IMG/VR virus record: IMGVR_UViG_3300010297_000002
Coordinates: 1-64,000 of that record
Origin: a virus
DNA: 64,000 bases
Direction: 5' to 3' (one strand)
Shown: one piece after another, positions 4,928 through 48,547 of the stretch
Layout of the letters: every line of letters begins with the position of its first letter
Numbering within the stretch: position 1 is the first letter of the stretch
The notes under the pieces: generated by a model
Databases searched by the model: none
What the model was told of the DNA's origin: nothing
The model's input: the letters and a program-made list of their open reading frames with translations, nothing else
Translations under genes and position numbers: made by a program

Positions 4928-5782
4928 ATGAGCTTGAAGAAGGTAAGAGAGGTTTTAAGAGTAATTAAACAAATCGGAGGGGCCTCAAATGTTAGGGACC
5001 CCGAGCCTCTTAATAAATCTCAGGAAAAGTTTCAGAAGATCGAAGAAGACGGGACCTCCAAGGTCAGGCTTCCCGATAATGTTCCTATCCCTGGATCTTC
5101 TCCCAATTCATTTAATTCTTCCAAGAGAGTTTCCGAGTCTTTAGGAAACTTCGGCTCGTTCTCCGATGATGATCGTGAAAGCGATGTTATTGAGCGAAAA
5201 CCTCGAGCCTCCGTGTTCGTAGGAAATCTTTCATCTTTCTGCCACAAGGACGACATTGATTACCTACTGAGCTTCGTAAATAAGTTCTCTTCCGATCTCA
5301 ATAGTGATTTGATAACTCACATAGAGAAGGAGCTGAAAAGGATCGAAAAGCTTCTAAAAAGGTGCTTCGCTATCGAGGCCAAGATGCTGGAAAACCATAA
5401 GACCAGTGCCCAGACTCTCAAACAGATATTTGAGGCGGTCAAAGCTGGAGCTTCTGGTGGTTCGGGTATTTATTATGGAGGCGATCGGGATTCAGATGGG
5501 GTGACAACTACGGAAGCTCTTCGTAAGTACATGCCGGAGGAGACTGGATTTGAGACAGATCTCACCACTAGGGCTGTCGAAGAAGCTAAGCTTCCGTATA
5601 AACCGGTAATCAACAGGATTAACGAATGTCAGTACACTGGGATGTCTTTGATTAAAAGGTATTATCTTTTAAATGACTTGAAATCGTCTCTTGAAGACAA
5701 GGATAAGCTTTCAACAGCCACGGAATCCTTGGAGTACGTGAAGAGTAATTTGAAGATATTTAAGAACGTAAAGAGTGACTAA
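4928..5782 (+). CDS. Unknown helical protein of the baseplate operon
   Basis: 284 residues, not recognised. The first 80 residues are polar and low in hydrophobics. Residues 95-180 are strongly helical (HIEKELKRIEKLLKRCFAIE), followed by a short Gly-rich turn (GASGGSGIYYGGDRDSDG) and another helical region. No signal peptide or membrane segment is visible. It is three bases from the preceding gene and four from the following one, so it is co-transcribed with baseplate genes; a structural or assembly role is inferred from that alone. Confidence 0.68.
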   Translation: MSLKKVREVLRVIKQIGGASNVRDPEPLNKSQEKFQKIEEDGTSKVRLPDNVPIPGSSPNSFNSSKRVSESLGNFGSFSDDDRESDVIERKPRASVFVGNLSSFCHKDDIDYLLSFVNKFSSDLNSDLITHIEKELKRIEKLLKRCFAIEAKMLENHKTSAQTLKQIFEAVKAGASGGSGIYYGGDRDSDGVTTTEALRKYMPEETGFETDLTTRAVEEAKLPYKPVINRINECQYTGMSLIKRYYLLNDLKSSLEDKDKLSTATESLEYVKSNLKIFKNVKSD

Positions 5783-28693: not shown

Positions 28694-31600
28694 ATGATTA
28701 TTAATGTTCGGGATGTCCTAAAACCAGAAGTAATGCCGGGTAGGGGAGATTTTTTAAAAGAAGTCGCGAGAGAGGAAATGGTAGAGCCTTGGATGGATGA
28801 GATGACCTTCCTGCTTCTCAACGACATGGACGAGATAGTAGATTATTTTGAATCAGCGTTATCCACGGCGGAGTACATCGCAATCGACTCGGAAACTACA
28901 GGACTTAACGTGCGGACTGCGGAGATCGTAGGTCTTTCTTTTTCTTACAGGGATAAGGAGTGTGCTTACATTCCTTTGAATCATAATTTTGGGCTGAACG
29001 CTCCCTACGGTCGATTTATGGATTTTTTCAGGTCGATCATACCCAAGACCAAGTGGGTTTTTTACAACGCTAAGTACGATGCTGAGGTTTTTCATTTTAA
29101 TGGAATCCATATGAAGGCTGGTGAGAATTTCGAAGATGCGATGCTCGCCGTCTGCCTCCATGACTCTAATGATGCCCAGGGTAAAGGACTGAAGACGGCT
29201 TCTAAAATTTATCTTCAGCGTAAGATGATTGAGTTTAAGAACGTGGCTGGGGTCGAGGGCGTAGATGACGACGATATGGTCGGGGAAGGATTTAAGAACG
29301 CGAAGTTGGAGGAAGCTTGTTTATACGCAGCTTCAGATGCTCTTAATACTCGTGATCTGTACGAGATGTTCAAATACGTAAAGGAAGAGCAGAAGATCAT
29401 CTATGAAATGGAGACTGAGCTTATCGATGTGGTTCGTGAGATGGAGCGGAACGGTGTTGCTATCGATGTTCCTTATTTCAAAACGTTGGAGCGGAGAATT
29501 AGTTCAAAGATGGAGAGGATTAAGCAAGAGGTTTATAGCAAATGTAATGTGGAGTACGGAGCGTTTAATATAGACTCGGGCCCTCAGGTTGGTCGTGTTT
29601 TCTTCGAGGATCTTGGAATCGAGAACCCCTTCAAGACAGATAAGGGTAAGTACAAAACTGACGAGAAAACCATGCTAAAGCTCGCAGAAACCTCGGGTAA
29701 TGATGTTCTTCTCAGTTATCGGGACTATAAGAAGGTCCAGAAGTTGATGAGCAATTACGTAACTCCCTACATCCAAGATCTAGATCTAAAGATTGGATAT
29801 GTGGCATTCAAGCAATTCTCTATCTCCACGGGTAGATTCGGAGGAGGAGGGGGAAAAGCTCTTTCCCACTACCTGCCTGGAGTTAATCCTCAGAATATCC
29901 CGGCCATTCGTCCTAAGAAGGGTCAGAAGGTTCGGAAGATAAAGGTAGCTCGTCAGGAAGACATGCCCGAGGATCATTACTGTTACGAGTACATCTTCGA
30001 CGGCAAGGACGGCATCTATTGTACAAGAACAGATTGTTCGGGATGTCCATTTGAATCAACGTGCGAGAACGAGCTCTTAGAAGATATTGAGATTGATACT
30101 TCTCCAAACATCCGCCGAGGTTTCATTGCTCGTGATCCGGATAACTACATTTTTACTATCGATTTCTCGGGAGTGGAATTGAGGATGGCCGCCAACCTCT
30201 CTAAGGAGCCGAAGTGGATTGATTCGTTCATAAACGGAGACGGGGATCTTCACATGCTTTCGGCCATGAACATTTTTAAGAAGCCTGCGAAGCAGATCTC
30301 CAAAGCGGAGCGATCCTTGGGCAAGACGGTTAATTTTCTCGCCCTCTACGGAGGTGGTCCTTTTGGTTTGAGTCAACAGGCCAAGATACCGGAGGATGAA
30401 GCAGCCAGGGTTTTAAAGAATTATTGGGAAGGTATCCCAATGGTGGACGATCTTCGTAAACAGGTTTGGAAGGAAGCTGAGACTCGTCATGCGGCATTCA
30501 CTAAACTAGGTCGGAAGCGTCCTATGCCCGCCTTTAAATTAGATCCCCAGAGGGCAGAGACTCGTGAAGAGCAAAAGGATATTCGAAAGGCTCAAAGTGC
30601 TGCTAAGCGGGAGGCGTTTTCTCATAAGATTCAAGGATCTTCTGCGGATCTTATGAAGATGGCCATGCTTCGTTGCAGCCGTAGGATTAAGAAGAATGGG
30701 TGGGAAGATAAACTTATGATCCTTCTTACTGTACACGACGAATTGGTTTTTGAGTGCCATAAGGACATTATTTTTGACGCGATGCGTGAGATGTCAGAGT
30801 GTATGCAAGTACCGTTCCCCGATTTTGAAGTTCCTTTTATCACTGATATCGAATTTTCAGATCACGTTAAATCTAATTGGGGGATGACCACAGAATGTCG
30901 TATTTATGACGATGGTAATGTTTACCCCACTAAGCTCATGAAACAAGCAGCCGACGCTAAGATGACAGTACCGGAGTATCTCCACTCGACTGGTGGAGAA
31001 GTCCGACCCCCGGTTACCCCAGGTTACTCTGATAAGGTGGTCAGCTACTCAGGAGATGTTACCGAGGAGAGTAAGGAAGTAGTTGAGGTTGAACCTGAGA
31101 AGGAGTTTCCTTTTTACCAAAAGACAGATGCTGAGATCTTAAAGTTTATCAAAGAGAACTCGATCAAGGTTGATGTCCTTGCCGAAGAGGTTCAAAAAGT
31201 CAAGACCTTCGCTAAGCAGGTTGTAGAGATGAAGCAATCCGAATCTCATCACATAATCGATGGAAGTAAGCAGGTCGAGAGATTTTTCACGGGAACCCTA
31301 GGCGAAGTAGCTTTGGAAAAATTACTAGGCGTTCGCTTTGTGGATTGGTCTGTGGGGGACTCTAAGGACTTCAATGCTCCGGATTTGAAAATTCTTGGTT
31401 TGGACGCTGGAGTCAAGACCGTGGAGATTGGTAAGTTTCCCCTGATATTTAAGGAACCGAAGTATCCCGAGATCTTTATGTTTAGAGAGGGAATCAACGC
31501 TGTGTATATTCTAGGGGTGGCTTCCGTGGAGGTCCTTAAACAGTACCAGGAAGACTGTTTAGTCCTTTCACCCGAACTTCGATCCAGGGGAACCAAGTCC

Positions 31601-31996
31601 GGCTTCTATGGGTTGGATAAACTTAAATCCTTTTCCTCATTCGATGAGTTAAAGGAGGTTCTTAACTTCTCTCCAGAAGAGTCAGAGAATGCGGAGGATT
31701 CGGCTCCTAAGATCGTGGGTAAGGAGCCCAAGAGTGTTCTCCCCGGACATAAGACTACGGAGTTTCCGAATATTAAGCTTAACCTGGATGGTAAGGAAGA
31801 CCAGACCTTCGACTTTAAGAATACTCCGTTGACTCGAAGGTTAGCCCGCCAGCTTGAAGATATTTTTGAGACTATTCCAGGAGTGTCCGATGTTTTTCTG
31901 GATTTTTCCACGGATAGTCGAGAGTTGGTGCTTCATCGTCCTAAGGTTAATCTTTCGAAGTTTCGCATTAAGTACTCGACTTTTTTCTCTAAGTGA
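28694..31996 (+). CDS. Family A DNA polymerase with Cys insertion and extra C-terminal domain
   Basis: 1100 residues. The 3'-5' exonuclease domain starts near residue 58 (AIDSETTGLN; D65 and E67). Polymerase motif A is TIDFSGVELR near 488-497, motif B (RSLGKTVNFLALYG) near 540-553 and motif C (VHDELVFE) near 681-688. A proofreading phage polymerase of this type is usually 600-750 residues. Two additions stand out: a cysteine cluster C-x4-C-x2-C-x5-C at about 442-457, just before motif A, and about 350 residues after the polymerase core. Within the latter, GEVALEKLLG (near 870), PDLKILG (near 896) and GVKTVEIGKFP (near 907) resemble a PD-(D/E)XK-like fold. A terminator follows the gene. Confidence 0.88.
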   Translation: MIINVRDVLKPEVMPGRGDFLKEVAREEMVEPWMDEMTFLLLNDMDEIVDYFESALSTAEYIAIDSETTGLNVRTAEIVGLSFSYRDKECAYIPLNHNFGLNAPYGRFMDFFRSIIPKTKWVFYNAKYDAEVFHFNGIHMKAGENFEDAMLAVCLHDSNDAQGKGLKTASKIYLQRKMIEFKNVAGVEGVDDDDMVGEGFKNAKLEEACLYAASDALNTRDLYEMFKYVKEEQKIIYEMETELIDVVREMERNGVAIDVPYFKTLERRISSKMERIKQEVYSKCNVEYGAFNIDSGPQVGRVFFEDLGIENPFKTDKGKYKTDEKTMLKLAETSGNDVLLSYRDYKKVQKLMSNYVTPYIQDLDLKIGYVAFKQFSISTGRFGGGGGKALSHYLPGVNPQNIPAIRPKKGQKVRKIKVARQEDMPEDHYCYEYIFDGKDGIYCTRTDCSGCPFESTCENELLEDIEIDTSPNIRRGFIARDPDNYIFTIDFSGVELRMAANLSKEPKWIDSFINGDGDLHMLSAMNIFKKPAKQISKAERSLGKTVNFLALYGGGPFGLSQQAKIPEDEAARVLKNYWEGIPMVDDLRKQVWKEAETRHAAFTKLGRKRPMPAFKLDPQRAETREEQKDIRKAQSAAKREAFSHKIQGSSADLMKMAMLRCSRRIKKNGWEDKLMILLTVHDELVFECHKDIIFDAMREMSECMQVPFPDFEVPFITDIEFSDHVKSNWGMTTECRIYDDGNVYPTKLMKQAADAKMTVPEYLHSTGGEVRPPVTPGYSDKVVSYSGDVTEESKEVVEVEPEKEFPFYQKTDAEILKFIKENSIKVDVLAEEVQKVKTFAKQVVEMKQSESHHIIDGSKQVERFFTGTLGEVALEKLLGVRFVDWSVGDSKDFNAPDLKILGLDAGVKTVEIGKFPLIFKEPKYPEIFMFREGINAVYILGVASVEVLKQYQEDCLVLSPELRSRGTKSGFYGLDKLKSFSSFDELKEVLNFSPEESENAEDSAPKIVGKEPKSVLPGHKTTEFPNIKLNLDGKEDQTFDFKNTPLTRRLARQLEDIFETIPGVSDVFLDFSTDSRELVLHRPKVNLSKFRIKYSTFFSK

Positions 31997-45525: not shown

Positions 45526-47355
45526 ATGTCTGAGATTATTCAAGAAAATAAAAACACTAACGCCAAAAAAGCCATACCCAATTACTCGGTGGGTTTGTCC
45601 CGAGCTGATCAGCTCGCTAAGGCCATCGTAAACAAGTATGGGGTTAACGTGAAGGTTGGGGAGTCTCCCTGCGTAGATCTCAAAACCAATACCATCTACG
45701 TACCTCCGTTCGATCCGAATGATGATACTGATGTTTCAAACATGATTCATTATATTGTTCATGAGGTTGGACACATCCTCTACTCGGATCAAACGGAGCT
45801 TCGTGGAATTAAGTTCAAGATCCTGAATGTGACCGAAGACCAAAGAATTAATGCCAAGCAAGAGTTGAAGTACGCTGGAATCAGTTTCAAGGTCATGGAG
45901 CAGAGAATCATGGATAAGATGGCTCGTTCCAATAAGAAGTCCCAGGAGAGGGTCGATGACTTTGTAAAGAAGCTAGAGGAGTCTGGTGTAGACCAGCTCT
46001 TTGGTATCGACAAAGAGAAGATCAAAGAGAACCAAGAGGCTATCGAGAACTTGAACATCTTCATTTCAGGTCTTCTGATGAAATGTCATGGTGTTGCTAA
46101 GGCTAAGATTAAAAAGCACTTCAAGAGGCAGGATTGGTGGCAGGCCTATGAGTCCATCGAGAGTCTTCTGGAGCATAAATGGGTGAAGATTCCGTCCTCA
46201 GCCCTGCTGGAGGATGATGCTGAGGCCATCTTCGATGCGATCAAGGATTTACTTCCTGAGAACTTCGAGAACGAAACTACGTCCGACGGGTCCCATGTGG
46301 TCTCCATGCCAGCGGATGGGTTCGGTCAAGGAGACCCAGCCGATCAATCTGATCAGGGGCAGCAAGGGGGCCAGGGCGGTGACCAACCTTTATCTCAGCA
46401 AGGGGGGACCCACTCAGAGAATGGTTTTTCTAATGAGGACTTGGAGAATAAAGTAAAGAACTCCTCTTGCCGTAGTGACAATGTCACTGAGGAGGAGTCC
46501 TGGTCCGATGGTGACAAGAACAACAACCCCTCTTACGGGACAAATCTCACTGATAGGGTTATGGAGAACACAACTTTCTACCGGTATAACCCGAACAGTC
46601 ATGCAGGTTCTTGGTCTCAGCGAGATCGTTTAGATCTTCGGTCGAAGATGTTCTACAACCGATTTCTAGATATGCTTCTAGTCGAAGACCAGATAGATCA
46701 TCAGGACGGTTATTCTTCTGGGAAGTTGGCCAAGCCTCATAAGATCATGACCAGTCCTCGAATCTTCTCTAAGATTCAAGATGGAGTTACTCATGAAAAG
46801 GTAGACGTAACGATTATTTGCGACTATTCCGGTTCCATGGGAGGTTACACCCAGAATGTGGCTGAAGTAGGAGGAGGGATTGCTTTGGCTTTGTCGAAGC
46901 TGCAGATCCCTCATCAGATGTTCGGTTACGACTCATCATATGGGAGTGACTGTAAGGTTTATGAGATAATTCCTTACAGCACTATATTTGATGCACGGAT
47001 GTGCGACGCTCTGTTTAAGATGAATTCTGGTGGAGGAACCCCGACCGGAGAGGCCTTGATGTATTGCTTGGAAAAGCATGTGTTACCCAAGCCTGGGTTT
47101 CGTAAGTTGGTGTTTTTGATTACGGACGGATGTCCGAATAATCCTTCTTACACGGAAGATATAGTTAAAATCTACCGAAGGTACAAGGACATCAAGTTAT
47201 CCGGTATTGGAGTGGGTAGTAGTTGTGAGAACCTACTCCGACATATACCAGACGCAATGCTGATGAAGGACTTCGAGCAGTTCACTGTCGAAGGGCAGCA
47301 GAAGTTCTTTAATGACCTGGAGAAATTCATGGTTGGCGGTCGCACAATAATTTAG
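45526..47355 (+). CDS. Metallopeptidase-like (HEXXH) VWA protein, MoxR partner
   Basis: 609 residues, AGAGG six bases before ATG. Residues 79-83 form HEVGH within IVHEVGHILYSD, a zinc-peptidase motif, and NVTEDQRINAKQE about 20 residues later can supply the third ligand. A Gln/Gly-rich linker covers roughly 262-295. The C-terminal VWA domain has a complete MIDAS: DYSGSMGG (D433, S435, S437), GGTPTGEAL and ITDG. This order, putative metallopeptidase then VWA-like domain, matches the DUF2201 type of proteins that work with MoxR ATPases. The two genes probably form one machine that acts on a protein target. Confidence 0.82.
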   Translation: MSEIIQENKNTNAKKAIPNYSVGLSRADQLAKAIVNKYGVNVKVGESPCVDLKTNTIYVPPFDPNDDTDVSNMIHYIVHEVGHILYSDQTELRGIKFKILNVTEDQRINAKQELKYAGISFKVMEQRIMDKMARSNKKSQERVDDFVKKLEESGVDQLFGIDKEKIKENQEAIENLNIFISGLLMKCHGVAKAKIKKHFKRQDWWQAYESIESLLEHKWVKIPSSALLEDDAEAIFDAIKDLLPENFENETTSDGSHVVSMPADGFGQGDPADQSDQGQQGGQGGDQPLSQQGGTHSENGFSNEDLENKVKNSSCRSDNVTEEESWSDGDKNNNPSYGTNLTDRVMENTTFYRYNPNSHAGSWSQRDRLDLRSKMFYNRFLDMLLVEDQIDHQDGYSSGKLAKPHKIMTSPRIFSKIQDGVTHEKVDVTIICDYSGSMGGYTQNVAEVGGGIALALSKLQIPHQMFGYDSSYGSDCKVYEIIPYSTIFDARMCDALFKMNSGGGTPTGEALMYCLEKHVLPKPGFRKLVFLITDGCPNNPSYTEDIVKIYRRYKDIKLSGIGVGSSCENLLRHIPDAMLMKDFEQFTVEGQQKFFNDLEKFMVGGRTII

Positions 47356-47474: not shown

Positions 47475-47526
47475 AAATTAGCAAGTCATTTGCAAAAACC
47501 CTCACCCGAAAAGGTGGGGGTTTTTT
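47431..47526 (+). promoter_or_regulatory. Leader-peptide attenuator (mutually exclusive hairpins)
   Basis: Three structures compete. Hairpin 1:2 pairs 47432-47441 (within the Ser codons) with 47446-47455 around a TCAG loop: ten pairs, two of them G-U. Antiterminator 2:3 pairs GAGGGTTT (47455-47462) with AAACCCTC (47496-47503), eight perfect pairs, and can extend by GGG (47452-47454) to CCC (47505-47507) across one bulged A. Terminator 3:4 uses the same AAACCCTC. A ribosome stalled at the Ser/Asp codons would mask arm 1 and free arm 2 to pair with 3, allowing read-through into the tRNAs. A ribosome that reaches the TAA would cover the GGGTTT of arm 2 and leave the terminator to form. A small GCTAA-AAA-TTAGC hairpin spans the stop codon. 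Confidence 0.75.
47494..47526 (+). terminator. Intrinsic terminator before the tRNA cluster
   Basis: CCCTCACC (47499-47506) pairs with GGTGGGGG (47513-47520; one G-U) around CGAAAA. It is extended by an A-run before and six T residues after (47521-47526). It ends ten bases before the first tRNA, so it must be overcome, or a separate promoter used, for the tRNAs to be made. It is the 3:4 element of the attenuator. Confidence 0.88.
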
Positions 47527-47536
47527 GTTTTCATTT

Positions 47537-47609
47537 GGTTCCGTAGCTCAATGGTTAGAGTACCGGCCTGTCACGTCGGGGGTTGCGAGTTCGAGTCTCG
47601 TCGGAACCG
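47537..47609 (+). tRNA. tRNA-Asp (anticodon GTC)
   Basis: The cloverleaf is complete: acceptor GGTTCCG/CGGAACC, D-arm GCTC/GAGT, anticodon stem CCGGC/GTCGG around loop CTGTCAC, and T-arm GCGAG TTCGAGT CTCGT. The anticodon GTC reads GAC and GAT. The discriminator base is G and no CCA is encoded, so a CCA-adding enzyme is needed. It is the first gene after the attenuator terminator; GAT occurs three times in the leader. Confidence 0.95.
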
Positions 47610-47614
47610 TATTT

Positions 47615-47697
47615 GGAAGAGATCCGGCTAGATGAGGAGCACGCCTGGAAAGCGTGTGCGTTGAAAAGCGTTGCGGGGGCGGGACCTGCCTCTTCCG
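47615..47697 (+). tRNA. tRNA-Ser (anticodon GGA), atypical D and T arms
   Basis: The acceptor GGAAGAG/CTCTTCC is perfect. The anticodon stem CACGC/GCGTG closes loop CTGGAAA, giving GGA for UCC and UCU. A long variable arm (GCGTT GAAA AGCGT) is typical of Ser. Two parts are odd. The T-stem GCGGG/CCTGC closes loop GGCGGGA, lacking the near-universal T54, T55 and A58. Only 18 bases separate the acceptor from the anticodon stem, with a weak D-stem TCC/GGA and no T8. It may be a functional variant or a decaying gene. Confidence 0.7.
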
Positions 47698-47704
47698 TAT
47701 TTTT

Positions 47705-47787
47705 AGTAGGTTGGCCGAGTGGTAAGGTATACGGTTGCTAACCGTAAGTCTCCGTAAGGAGCGGTGGTTCGATCCCACCACCTACTG
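47705..47787 (+). tRNA. tRNA-Ser (anticodon GCT)
   Basis: Acceptor AGTAGGT/ACCTACT, anticodon stem TACGG/CCGTA with loop TTGCTAA (anticodon GCT, reading AGC and AGU), a long variable arm with CTCC/GGAG, and a canonical T-arm GGTGG TTCGATC CCACC. The discriminator is G and no CCA is encoded. AGT occurs twice in the leader Ser/Asp run. Confidence 0.93.
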
Positions 47788-47793
47788 CATTTT

Positions 47794-47879
47794 AGTAGAT
47801 CGGCCGAGTGGTTGAAGGCAGCCGCCTCGAAAGCGGTAGAACTTGATCAGTTCCGTAGGTTCGAATCCTACATCTACTG
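47794..47879 (+). tRNA. tRNA-Ser (anticodon CGA)
   Basis: Acceptor AGTAGAT/ATCTACT, D-arm with the usual GAGTGGTTGAA loop, anticodon stem GCCGC/GCGGT with loop CTCGAAA (anticodon CGA, reading UCG), a long variable arm (AACT/AGTT), and a canonical T-arm GTAGG TTCGAAT CCTAC. The acceptor is nearly identical to that of the preceding Ser tRNA, suggesting duplication. Confidence 0.94.
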
Positions 47880-47884
47880 TATTT

Positions 47885-47971
47885 GGAAGCGTGGCAGAGT
47901 GCTCTATTGCGTCTGATTTGAGATCAGATGATCCTTACCGGGGTCCGTGGGTCGGAATCCCACCGCTTCCT
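47885..47971 (+). tRNA. tRNA-Ser (anticodon TGA), swapped D-T loop contact
   Basis: Acceptor GGAAGCG/CGCTTCC, anticodon stem TCTGA/TCAGA with loop TTTGAGA (anticodon TGA, reading UCA), and a long variable arm GATCC/GGGTC. The T-stem GTGGG/CCCAC closes TCGGAAT in place of TTCGAAT, so position 55 is C and 56 is G. In the D-loop (GAGTGCTCTAT) the usual G18-G19 is G-C. The conserved 19-56 contact is thus reversed from G-C to C-G. The discriminator is T, where bacterial Ser tRNAs have G. No CCA is encoded. Confidence 0.88.
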
Positions 47972-48034
47972 CTTTTATTTCTTTGATAATACGGCTTTTG
48001 GTAGAGAATCCTTCACTTCAACTCCAGGCAGGCA

Positions 48035-48547
48035 ATGAAAAATATCAAGATCAAGGTCAAAGGCTCCAAATTTGAGATGGACCAATCTCTCTATGACTAT
48101 ATCAATGAGATCGAGATCAAGGAAATTAAGACATTAGAAGAGGAACTTGCAGTCGAGAAGTTCCGATCCTTGAGAGACCTTTATCAAGAGTATATCCGAC
48201 CTGTTCAGCACGCTAAGAAAGCTTTTTCTATTTCGACTCCAGAAGTTCAGCTCGAAGTGGTTTTACAAGCCGACCCTCCTTCTCACAGAAACCTCATTGG
48301 GTTTCGTCGTGATGGTAAGGTAATTAAGGGTCAATTTTCGATCCCGGTTATTGTTGAAGGGGCTCAGGAGCGGGAAGTAGTGCCGTTCGTGAACTGGTAC
48401 ATTAACAGTTTTAGTTGTTTAATAAGATACCTACTTTGTAAGCAAGCTGGGGTGCGGGTTATCCAGCCTTTAGAAGACCGAAAAAACTGGAATCTTGAGG
48501 CAGGCAAGTTAAACCTGGACTTAGATTTCGTTGTTGTTTTTGAGTAG
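48035..48547 (+). CDS. Unknown virion-region protein
   Basis: 170 residues, not recognised, first gene after the tRNA cluster; AGGCAGG precedes the ATG. The sequence is alpha/beta: an early helical segment (YDYINEIEIKEIKTLEEEL), then beta strands (EVQLEVVLQADPP, GQFSIPVIVEG) and a final strand LDLDFVVVFE. It is five bases upstream of the long fibre gene, so it may be a neck or tail-attachment partner for that fibre. That role is inferred from position. Confidence 0.65.
   Translation: MKNIKIKVKGSKFEMDQSLYDYINEIEIKEIKTLEEELAVEKFRSLRDLYQEYIRPVQHAKKAFSISTPEVQLEVVLQADPPSHRNLIGFRRDGKVIKGQFSIPVIVEGAQEREVVPFVNWYINSFSCLIRYLLCKQAGVRVIQPLEDRKNWNLEAGKLNLDLDFVVVFE

Follow-up and report, generated by a model that had tools for sequence, protein, structure and literature searches.

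Reversed elbow bases in a phage tRNA-Ser(UGA) and paired changes at positions 18–19 and 55–56 in phage tRNAs

In the tRNA fold, the pair G19–C56 counts as nearly universal. According to passages in two reviews (PMC4810234, PMC7912444), bases 19 and 56 form a Watson–Crick pair, the ribosome, proteins and RNAs make use of the outer face of this pair, and 18–55 is a further elbow contact. A tRNA-Ser(UGA) gene in a virus record carries C19, C55 and G56 at these positions, which raises the question of whether it is a broken gene or encodes a working tRNA whose elbow is closed by a different pair.

The window, i.e., the whole stretch of DNA analysed, comprises 64,000 bases (bases 1–64000) of virus record IMGVR_UViG_3300010297_000002, which has 73,249 bases. 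Among its genes are those for tail and helicase functions and for a family A DNA polymerase (28694–31993). Megablast found no near relatives of this phage in the phages collection, and searches of viral_contigs with three proteins (48035–48544, 45526–47352 and the DNA polymerase) found none either. The last part of the virus record encodes an IS607-like serine recombinase and TnpB (72021–73248; L032:12021–13248). Plasmid matches to this TnpB have less than 60% identity and come from many genera, so that it names no host.

The tRNA genes form a cluster on the plus strand between a VWA-domain gene (45526–47355) and a gene at 48035 (Table 1). Four of them are found by both ARAGORN and Rfam, and a fifth, tRNA-Ser(GGA), is missed by both. 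Short TATTT-like spacers separate the genes. The four serine tRNAs together would be able to read all six serine codons. As a choice for codon supply, a cluster (47537–47971) with four serine tRNAs and only one other is odd. In tRNA-Ser(CGA), C8 (47801) replaces U8.

Table 1. Features of the tRNA cluster in window coordinates
Feature	Positions	Strand	Character	Basis
Terminator-like hairpin with T-tract, directly before the tRNA cluster	47494..47525	+		Consensus match only
tRNA-Asp(GUC)	47537..47609	+	Canonical elbow	ARAGORN, Rfam
Hidden tRNA-Ser(GGA)	47615..47697	+	Recoded loops	Direct reading, cloverleaf fold
tRNA-Ser(GCU)	47705..47787	+	Canonical elbow	ARAGORN, Rfam
tRNA-Ser(CGA)	47794..47879	+	Canonical GG/TTC elbow	ARAGORN, Rfam
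tRNA-Ser(UGA)	47885..47971	+	C19, C55, G56, G37, T73	ARAGORN, Rfam, alignment

Rfam matches tRNA-Ser(UGA) with 47.1 bits (cut-off 29), and ARAGORN calls it one base longer, at 47885–47972. Its stems are all paired (acceptor 7/7, anticodon 5/5, T stem 5/5), and the changes are at loop positions. The tRNA has the cloverleaf of a bacterial-type, class II tRNA-Ser, with a 7-bp acceptor stem, 5-bp anticodon and T stems, a long variable arm (GATCC/GGGTC) and the anticodon UGA. It departs from that class in the elbow, where G19–C56 and a T-Psi-C loop are expected. The D-loop has G18 (47901) and C19 (47902), and the T-loop is TCGGAAT, with U54 (47952), C55 (47953) and G56 (47954). Base 56 is thus not C and has a Watson–Crick partner at position 19, which places the tRNA in a class with a swapped 19–56 pair.

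For comparison, we used eight tRNA-Ser(UGA) relatives from named phages, fetched among 60 listed of 77 BLAST-matched records. All eight have GG at 18–19 and a TTCG or TTCA T-loop, and their G19 aligns exactly with C19 of the window, so that the alignment of the D-loop is beyond doubt. Both direct reading and this alignment thus confirm the reversed elbow bases described in an earlier note on this DNA. The same note regarded the discriminator T73 (47971) as a peculiarity, which does not hold: four of the eight relatives (L001, L003, L004 and L005) also have T. Position 37, directly 3′ of the anticodon, does differ, being G (47922) in the window and A in all eight relatives. Among 107 phage tRNAs with A36, the window tRNA included, 16 have G37; seven of these are tRNA-Phe, and the window tRNA is the sole tRNA-Ser. 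G37 beside the UGA anticodon may reduce function. A search of viral_contigs for a second tRNA with the TCGGAAT loop, using a Ser-type D-arm pattern with any base at position 19, gave 23 matches, none of them a tRNA.

Whether positions 19 and 56 change together was read from a sample of phage tRNAs called by ARAGORN in IMG/VR loci and in tRNA-rich stretches of their records. The records had entered through pattern matches that were nearly all due to chance, and the additional stretches were picked by tRNA density and not by their elbows; the exceptions are four records that were found through a C19–G56 tRNA. We reduced 652 distinct tRNAs to 607 by dropping those with fewer than six acceptor pairs, fewer than four pairs in the T or anticodon stem or a mismatched anticodon position, and then to 573 by dropping those with fewer than two D-stem pairs or fewer than six D-loop bases. 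Each remaining tRNA was scored by testing its D-loop for an 18–19 dinucleotide.

TC stands at 55–56 in 528 of the 573 tRNAs, 514 of which have GG in the D-loop, and all nine tRNAs with CC have GG as well. A changed base 56 goes with a changed base 19: the ten tRNAs with U56 (TT or CT) all have GA and thus A19, the ten with G56 (TG or CG) all have GC and thus C19, and three of the four with A56 (TA or CA) have GT and thus U19. A changed base 56 without its partner occurs once in 24 tRNAs. All 12 tRNAs with G55 (GC at 55–56) have AG.

Overall, 35 of the 36 recoded tRNAs (55–56 other than TC or CC) have the predicted 18–19 dinucleotide, and shuffling the D-loops gives a mean of 14.2 and a maximum of 25, with none of 20,000 shuffles reaching 35. 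The one exception is a tRNA-Lys (L191) with T-loop TTAAAGT. When the window tRNA and the four pattern-selected tRNAs are left out, 30 of 31 match; for base 56 alone, with the same five omitted, 18 of 19 match (shuffle mean 7.2, maximum 15, 0/20,000). Inside the G55 class the shuffle is uninformative because every member has one D-loop type, and here the comparison is with standard tRNAs: AG is found at an allowed place in 12/12 G55 tRNAs versus 67/528 TC tRNAs (Fisher p 4.5e-11). Some of the tRNAs are related (e.g., two tRNA-Thr(CGU)), and the counts are therefore of sequences and not of events. The 36 recoded tRNAs comprise 15 isotypes. The double change in the window tRNA is thus compensatory, as the earlier note had proposed; of its interpretation, this part stands and the unusual discriminator does not. 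In a tree of serine tRNAs drawn without branch supports, the tRNA-Ser with G56 (those of the window, L036, L058 and L356) lie apart from each other, amid canonical neighbours.

The D-loop can also change alone. GG is absent from 14 of the 528 TC tRNAs, some of which have an unusual D arm, whereas others apparently have A19 or C19 facing C56 (L036 His, L036 Leu and L356 Leu). The 19–56 pair is therefore not always kept, and lone D-loop changes are tolerated at times. Two further observations concern anticodon arms. The homologous tRNAs of L059 (~5473–5547) and L074 (~940–1014) have the anticodon loop CCCGTAA, with C33 for U33, and 41 of the 573 phage tRNAs read as C33. Xanthomonas phage XacN1 (L339:36047–36205) encodes two tRNAs with a CUA anticodon, annotated tRNA-Sup.

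A cellular control was compiled from three bacterial genomes. It consists of 90 tRNAs, retained from 98 distinct ones by the same stem and D-arm rules. None of these 90 is recoded versus 31 of 565 phage tRNAs (Fisher p 0.015), the control being small and, as it was taken at Rfam matches, leaning to high scorers. GG is present in 90/90. Four of the 90 have C55 next to C56 in their T-loop, like the nine phage tRNAs with CC, so C55 by itself is fairly ordinary. In tRNA-Ser(UGA) a contact between G18 and C55 is possible. C55 is incapable of becoming pseudouridine, and the preferred substrate of TruB and TrmA is the standard loop. We considered a phage-borne TruB as a cause of the changes at U55 and rejected it, as none of 12 records encodes TruB.

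Pattern scans of the collection address half-changed elbows directly. A C19–G56 pattern with position 55 left free gave 56 matches, of which four are tRNAs (acceptor 7/7, T stem 5/5): L036 Ser(UGA), L058 Ser(GGA) and the two Thr(CGU) of L059 and L074. The otherwise identical pattern with G19 and G56, the combination that the earlier note had named as pointing to random decay, gave 37 matches and no tRNA. The same pattern with C19 and C56 gave 76 matches, none of them genuine. Three of these did pass the stem filter; ARAGORN does not call two of them as tRNAs, and in the third, a tRNA-Leu in L173, a longer alpha loop precedes GG. In genome_contigs, a C19–G56 pattern with U55 gave at least 118 matches, at least four of which pass the stem filter and at least three of which are tRNA-Cys(GCA) according to ARAGORN. 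Among the matches listed, these are from Burkholderia sp. H160 (L264), Paraburkholderia translucens (L286) and a Bacteroidetes MAG (L282). The two from Burkholderiales (L264 and L286) have a long variable region. Nine proteins encoded next to the cellular tRNA-Cys gave no prophage link: six belong to enzyme or transporter families and three had no match.

The tRNA-Ser(GGA) missed by both programs has loops that diverge further still. Its stems are complete (acceptor GGAAGAG/CTCTTCC, D stem TCC/GGA, anticodon stem CACGC/GCGTG, T stem GCGGG/CCTGC with one G-U), it has a long variable arm, its sequence folds as a cloverleaf, and TATTT-like spacers flank it on both sides, as for the other tRNAs of the cluster. 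One base, not two, separates the acceptor and D stems. The D-loop is GGCTAGATGA, with A18 and G19, the anticodon loop is CTGGAAA and the T-loop is GGCGGGA, with G55 and C56. A18–G19 thus faces G55–C56, as in a tRNA-Asn of L116 (T-loop GGCGGAG). Since ARAGORN misses tRNA-Ser(GGA), it is absent from the sample of 573. A search for relatives with an identical T-loop and an identical anticodon loop gave 14 pattern matches, none of which is a tRNA. This case indicates that phage tRNAs can escape tRNA finders and that their number may be underestimated.

These data bear on the view that tRNA-Ser(UGA) is a pseudogene being lost, in which C19 and G56 met by chance. The alteration of the near-invariant positions 19, 37, 55 and 56 in one tRNA would fit such decay, as would the loops of the neighbouring tRNA-Ser(GGA). 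However, the stems of both tRNAs are intact, the changes affect positions that pair with each other, such paired changes are seen again in other phage tRNAs, and half-changed G56 tRNAs were not found among the 37 matches; we therefore regard decay as very unlikely. An assembly or sequencing error is extremely improbable: the sequence is known here from the IMG/VR contig alone, but separate substitutions that restore pairing are unlike random error, and the same pairing is found in other records. As other phage tRNAs swap 19–56 in matched pairs, tRNA-Ser(UGA) is probably a working variant and not a broken gene.

The composition of the cluster would fit another role, that of an extra-ribosomal tRNA or decoy that does not need a normal elbow. 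All serine anticodons (GGA, GCU, CGA and UGA) occur together, and one other amino acid is served. Yet the recoded bases make a standard pair, pointing to an elbow that is kept and not dropped, and recoding extends over 15 isotypes, which makes this role highly improbable.

Recoded elbows are unevenly spread over the phages. They are concentrated in four records (6/23, 5/28, 5/22 and 4/28 tRNAs) and number zero in twelve others, including records with 0/49, 0/44, 0/37 and 0/34. Over the 24 records with at least five tRNAs, chi is 69.7 with 23 df, a value reached by six of 20,000 permutations. Such a distribution could reflect adaptive recoding, by which the elbow is altered so that a host factor reading G19–C56 or the TTC loop (a nuclease, modification enzyme or binder) no longer acts. 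The difference between the bacterial and phage tRNAs is in line with this idea, as are the recognition of the 19–56 face by many proteins and RNAs, stated in a passage of PMC4810234, and the evasion of nucleases through changes in the anticodon loop of phage tRNAs, described in part of PMC10264068. On the other hand, GG and TTC are retained in the majority of the tRNAs that these phages encode, the analysis identified no nuclease that reads the elbow, cellular tRNA-Cys carry C19–G56 too, and the uneven spread could arise equally well if some lineages had a relaxed constraint or a common ancestor. We thus consider adaptive recoding unlikely. The more specific idea that recoded 19–56 and 18–55 contacts are a label which certain phage lineages put on their own tRNAs, and that host or phage factors reading the standard elbow thereby distinguish host from phage tRNAs during infection, is distinctly unlikely. 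The likeliest driver would be a weaker constraint on phage tRNAs, relaxed or phage specific, together with compensation that preserves the fold.

We therefore return to a working tRNA. Most probably, tRNA-Ser(UGA) is active in translation, with its elbow closed by the reversed C19–G56 as an equivalent replacement pair and with G18 facing C55. C19–G56 could occupy the place of G19–C56 with the partners exchanged, so that the L-shape would be kept. The swapped pair would preserve the flat face of the elbow and not its letters. More generally, 19–56 behaves in phage tRNAs as an ordinary covarying pair (G-C, C-G, A-U or U-A), and the 18–55 contact has a second form, A18 with G55. We infer that C19–G56 pairs in three dimensions and that the tRNA is charged and decodes. 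Natural tRNAs with all four Watson–Crick choices at 19–56, and with A18–G55, offer a direct test of whether shape or letters are read at the elbow by the ribosome, RNase P, modification enzymes and tRNA nucleases.

Our literature search, which mostly lay outside subscription journals, returned no description of covariation at 19–56 or 18–55, and older work on it may exist. For A18–G55 it yielded nothing, and the passage it returned on C19–G56 deals with a tmRNA complex and its A-site tRNA. A word search of two papers on phage tRNAs (PMC10264068 and PMC12482277) found no mention of the elbow or the T-loop in the text available.

Several known tRNAs can be compared with tRNA-Ser(UGA) of the window. 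As seen in part of PMC10264068, phage tRNAs that evade nucleases have an altered anticodon loop, and G37 of the window tRNA is also an anticodon-loop change. A passage in PMC7609411 describes tRNA-Pyl of Methanosarcina barkeri as having neither the G18–G19 nor the T-Psi-C motif; it differs in its short D-loop and other unusual arms and has no swapped pair. The cellular tRNA-Cys(GCA) of L264, L286 and L282 share C19–G56 with the window tRNA but keep U55, with T-loops TTGAAAT or TTGGAAT. C19–G56 with an intact cloverleaf is also seen in phages, in the tRNA-Ser(UGA) of L036 and L356, the tRNA-Ser(GGA) of L058 and the tRNA-Pro(CGG) of L059. The last also has C55–G56, whereas the other three keep U55; the compared stretches of these four phages and the window have no protein similarity. 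The Steinberg laboratory reportedly obtained suppressor tRNAs from randomised D- and T-loop libraries that function with non-standard elbow contacts; those tRNAs are laboratory-made, whereas that of the window is natural. The nearest experiment concerns tRNA-Ile(GAU) of bacteriophage T5 (AY543070), in which the elbow pair is likewise swapped and which has GA at 18–19 and the T-loop TTTAAAT and thus A19–U56. It has A-U where the window tRNA has C-G, and it keeps U55. The T5 genome record remarks that an anticodon-swapped version of this tRNA is an amber suppressor, indicating that a swapped pair can work.
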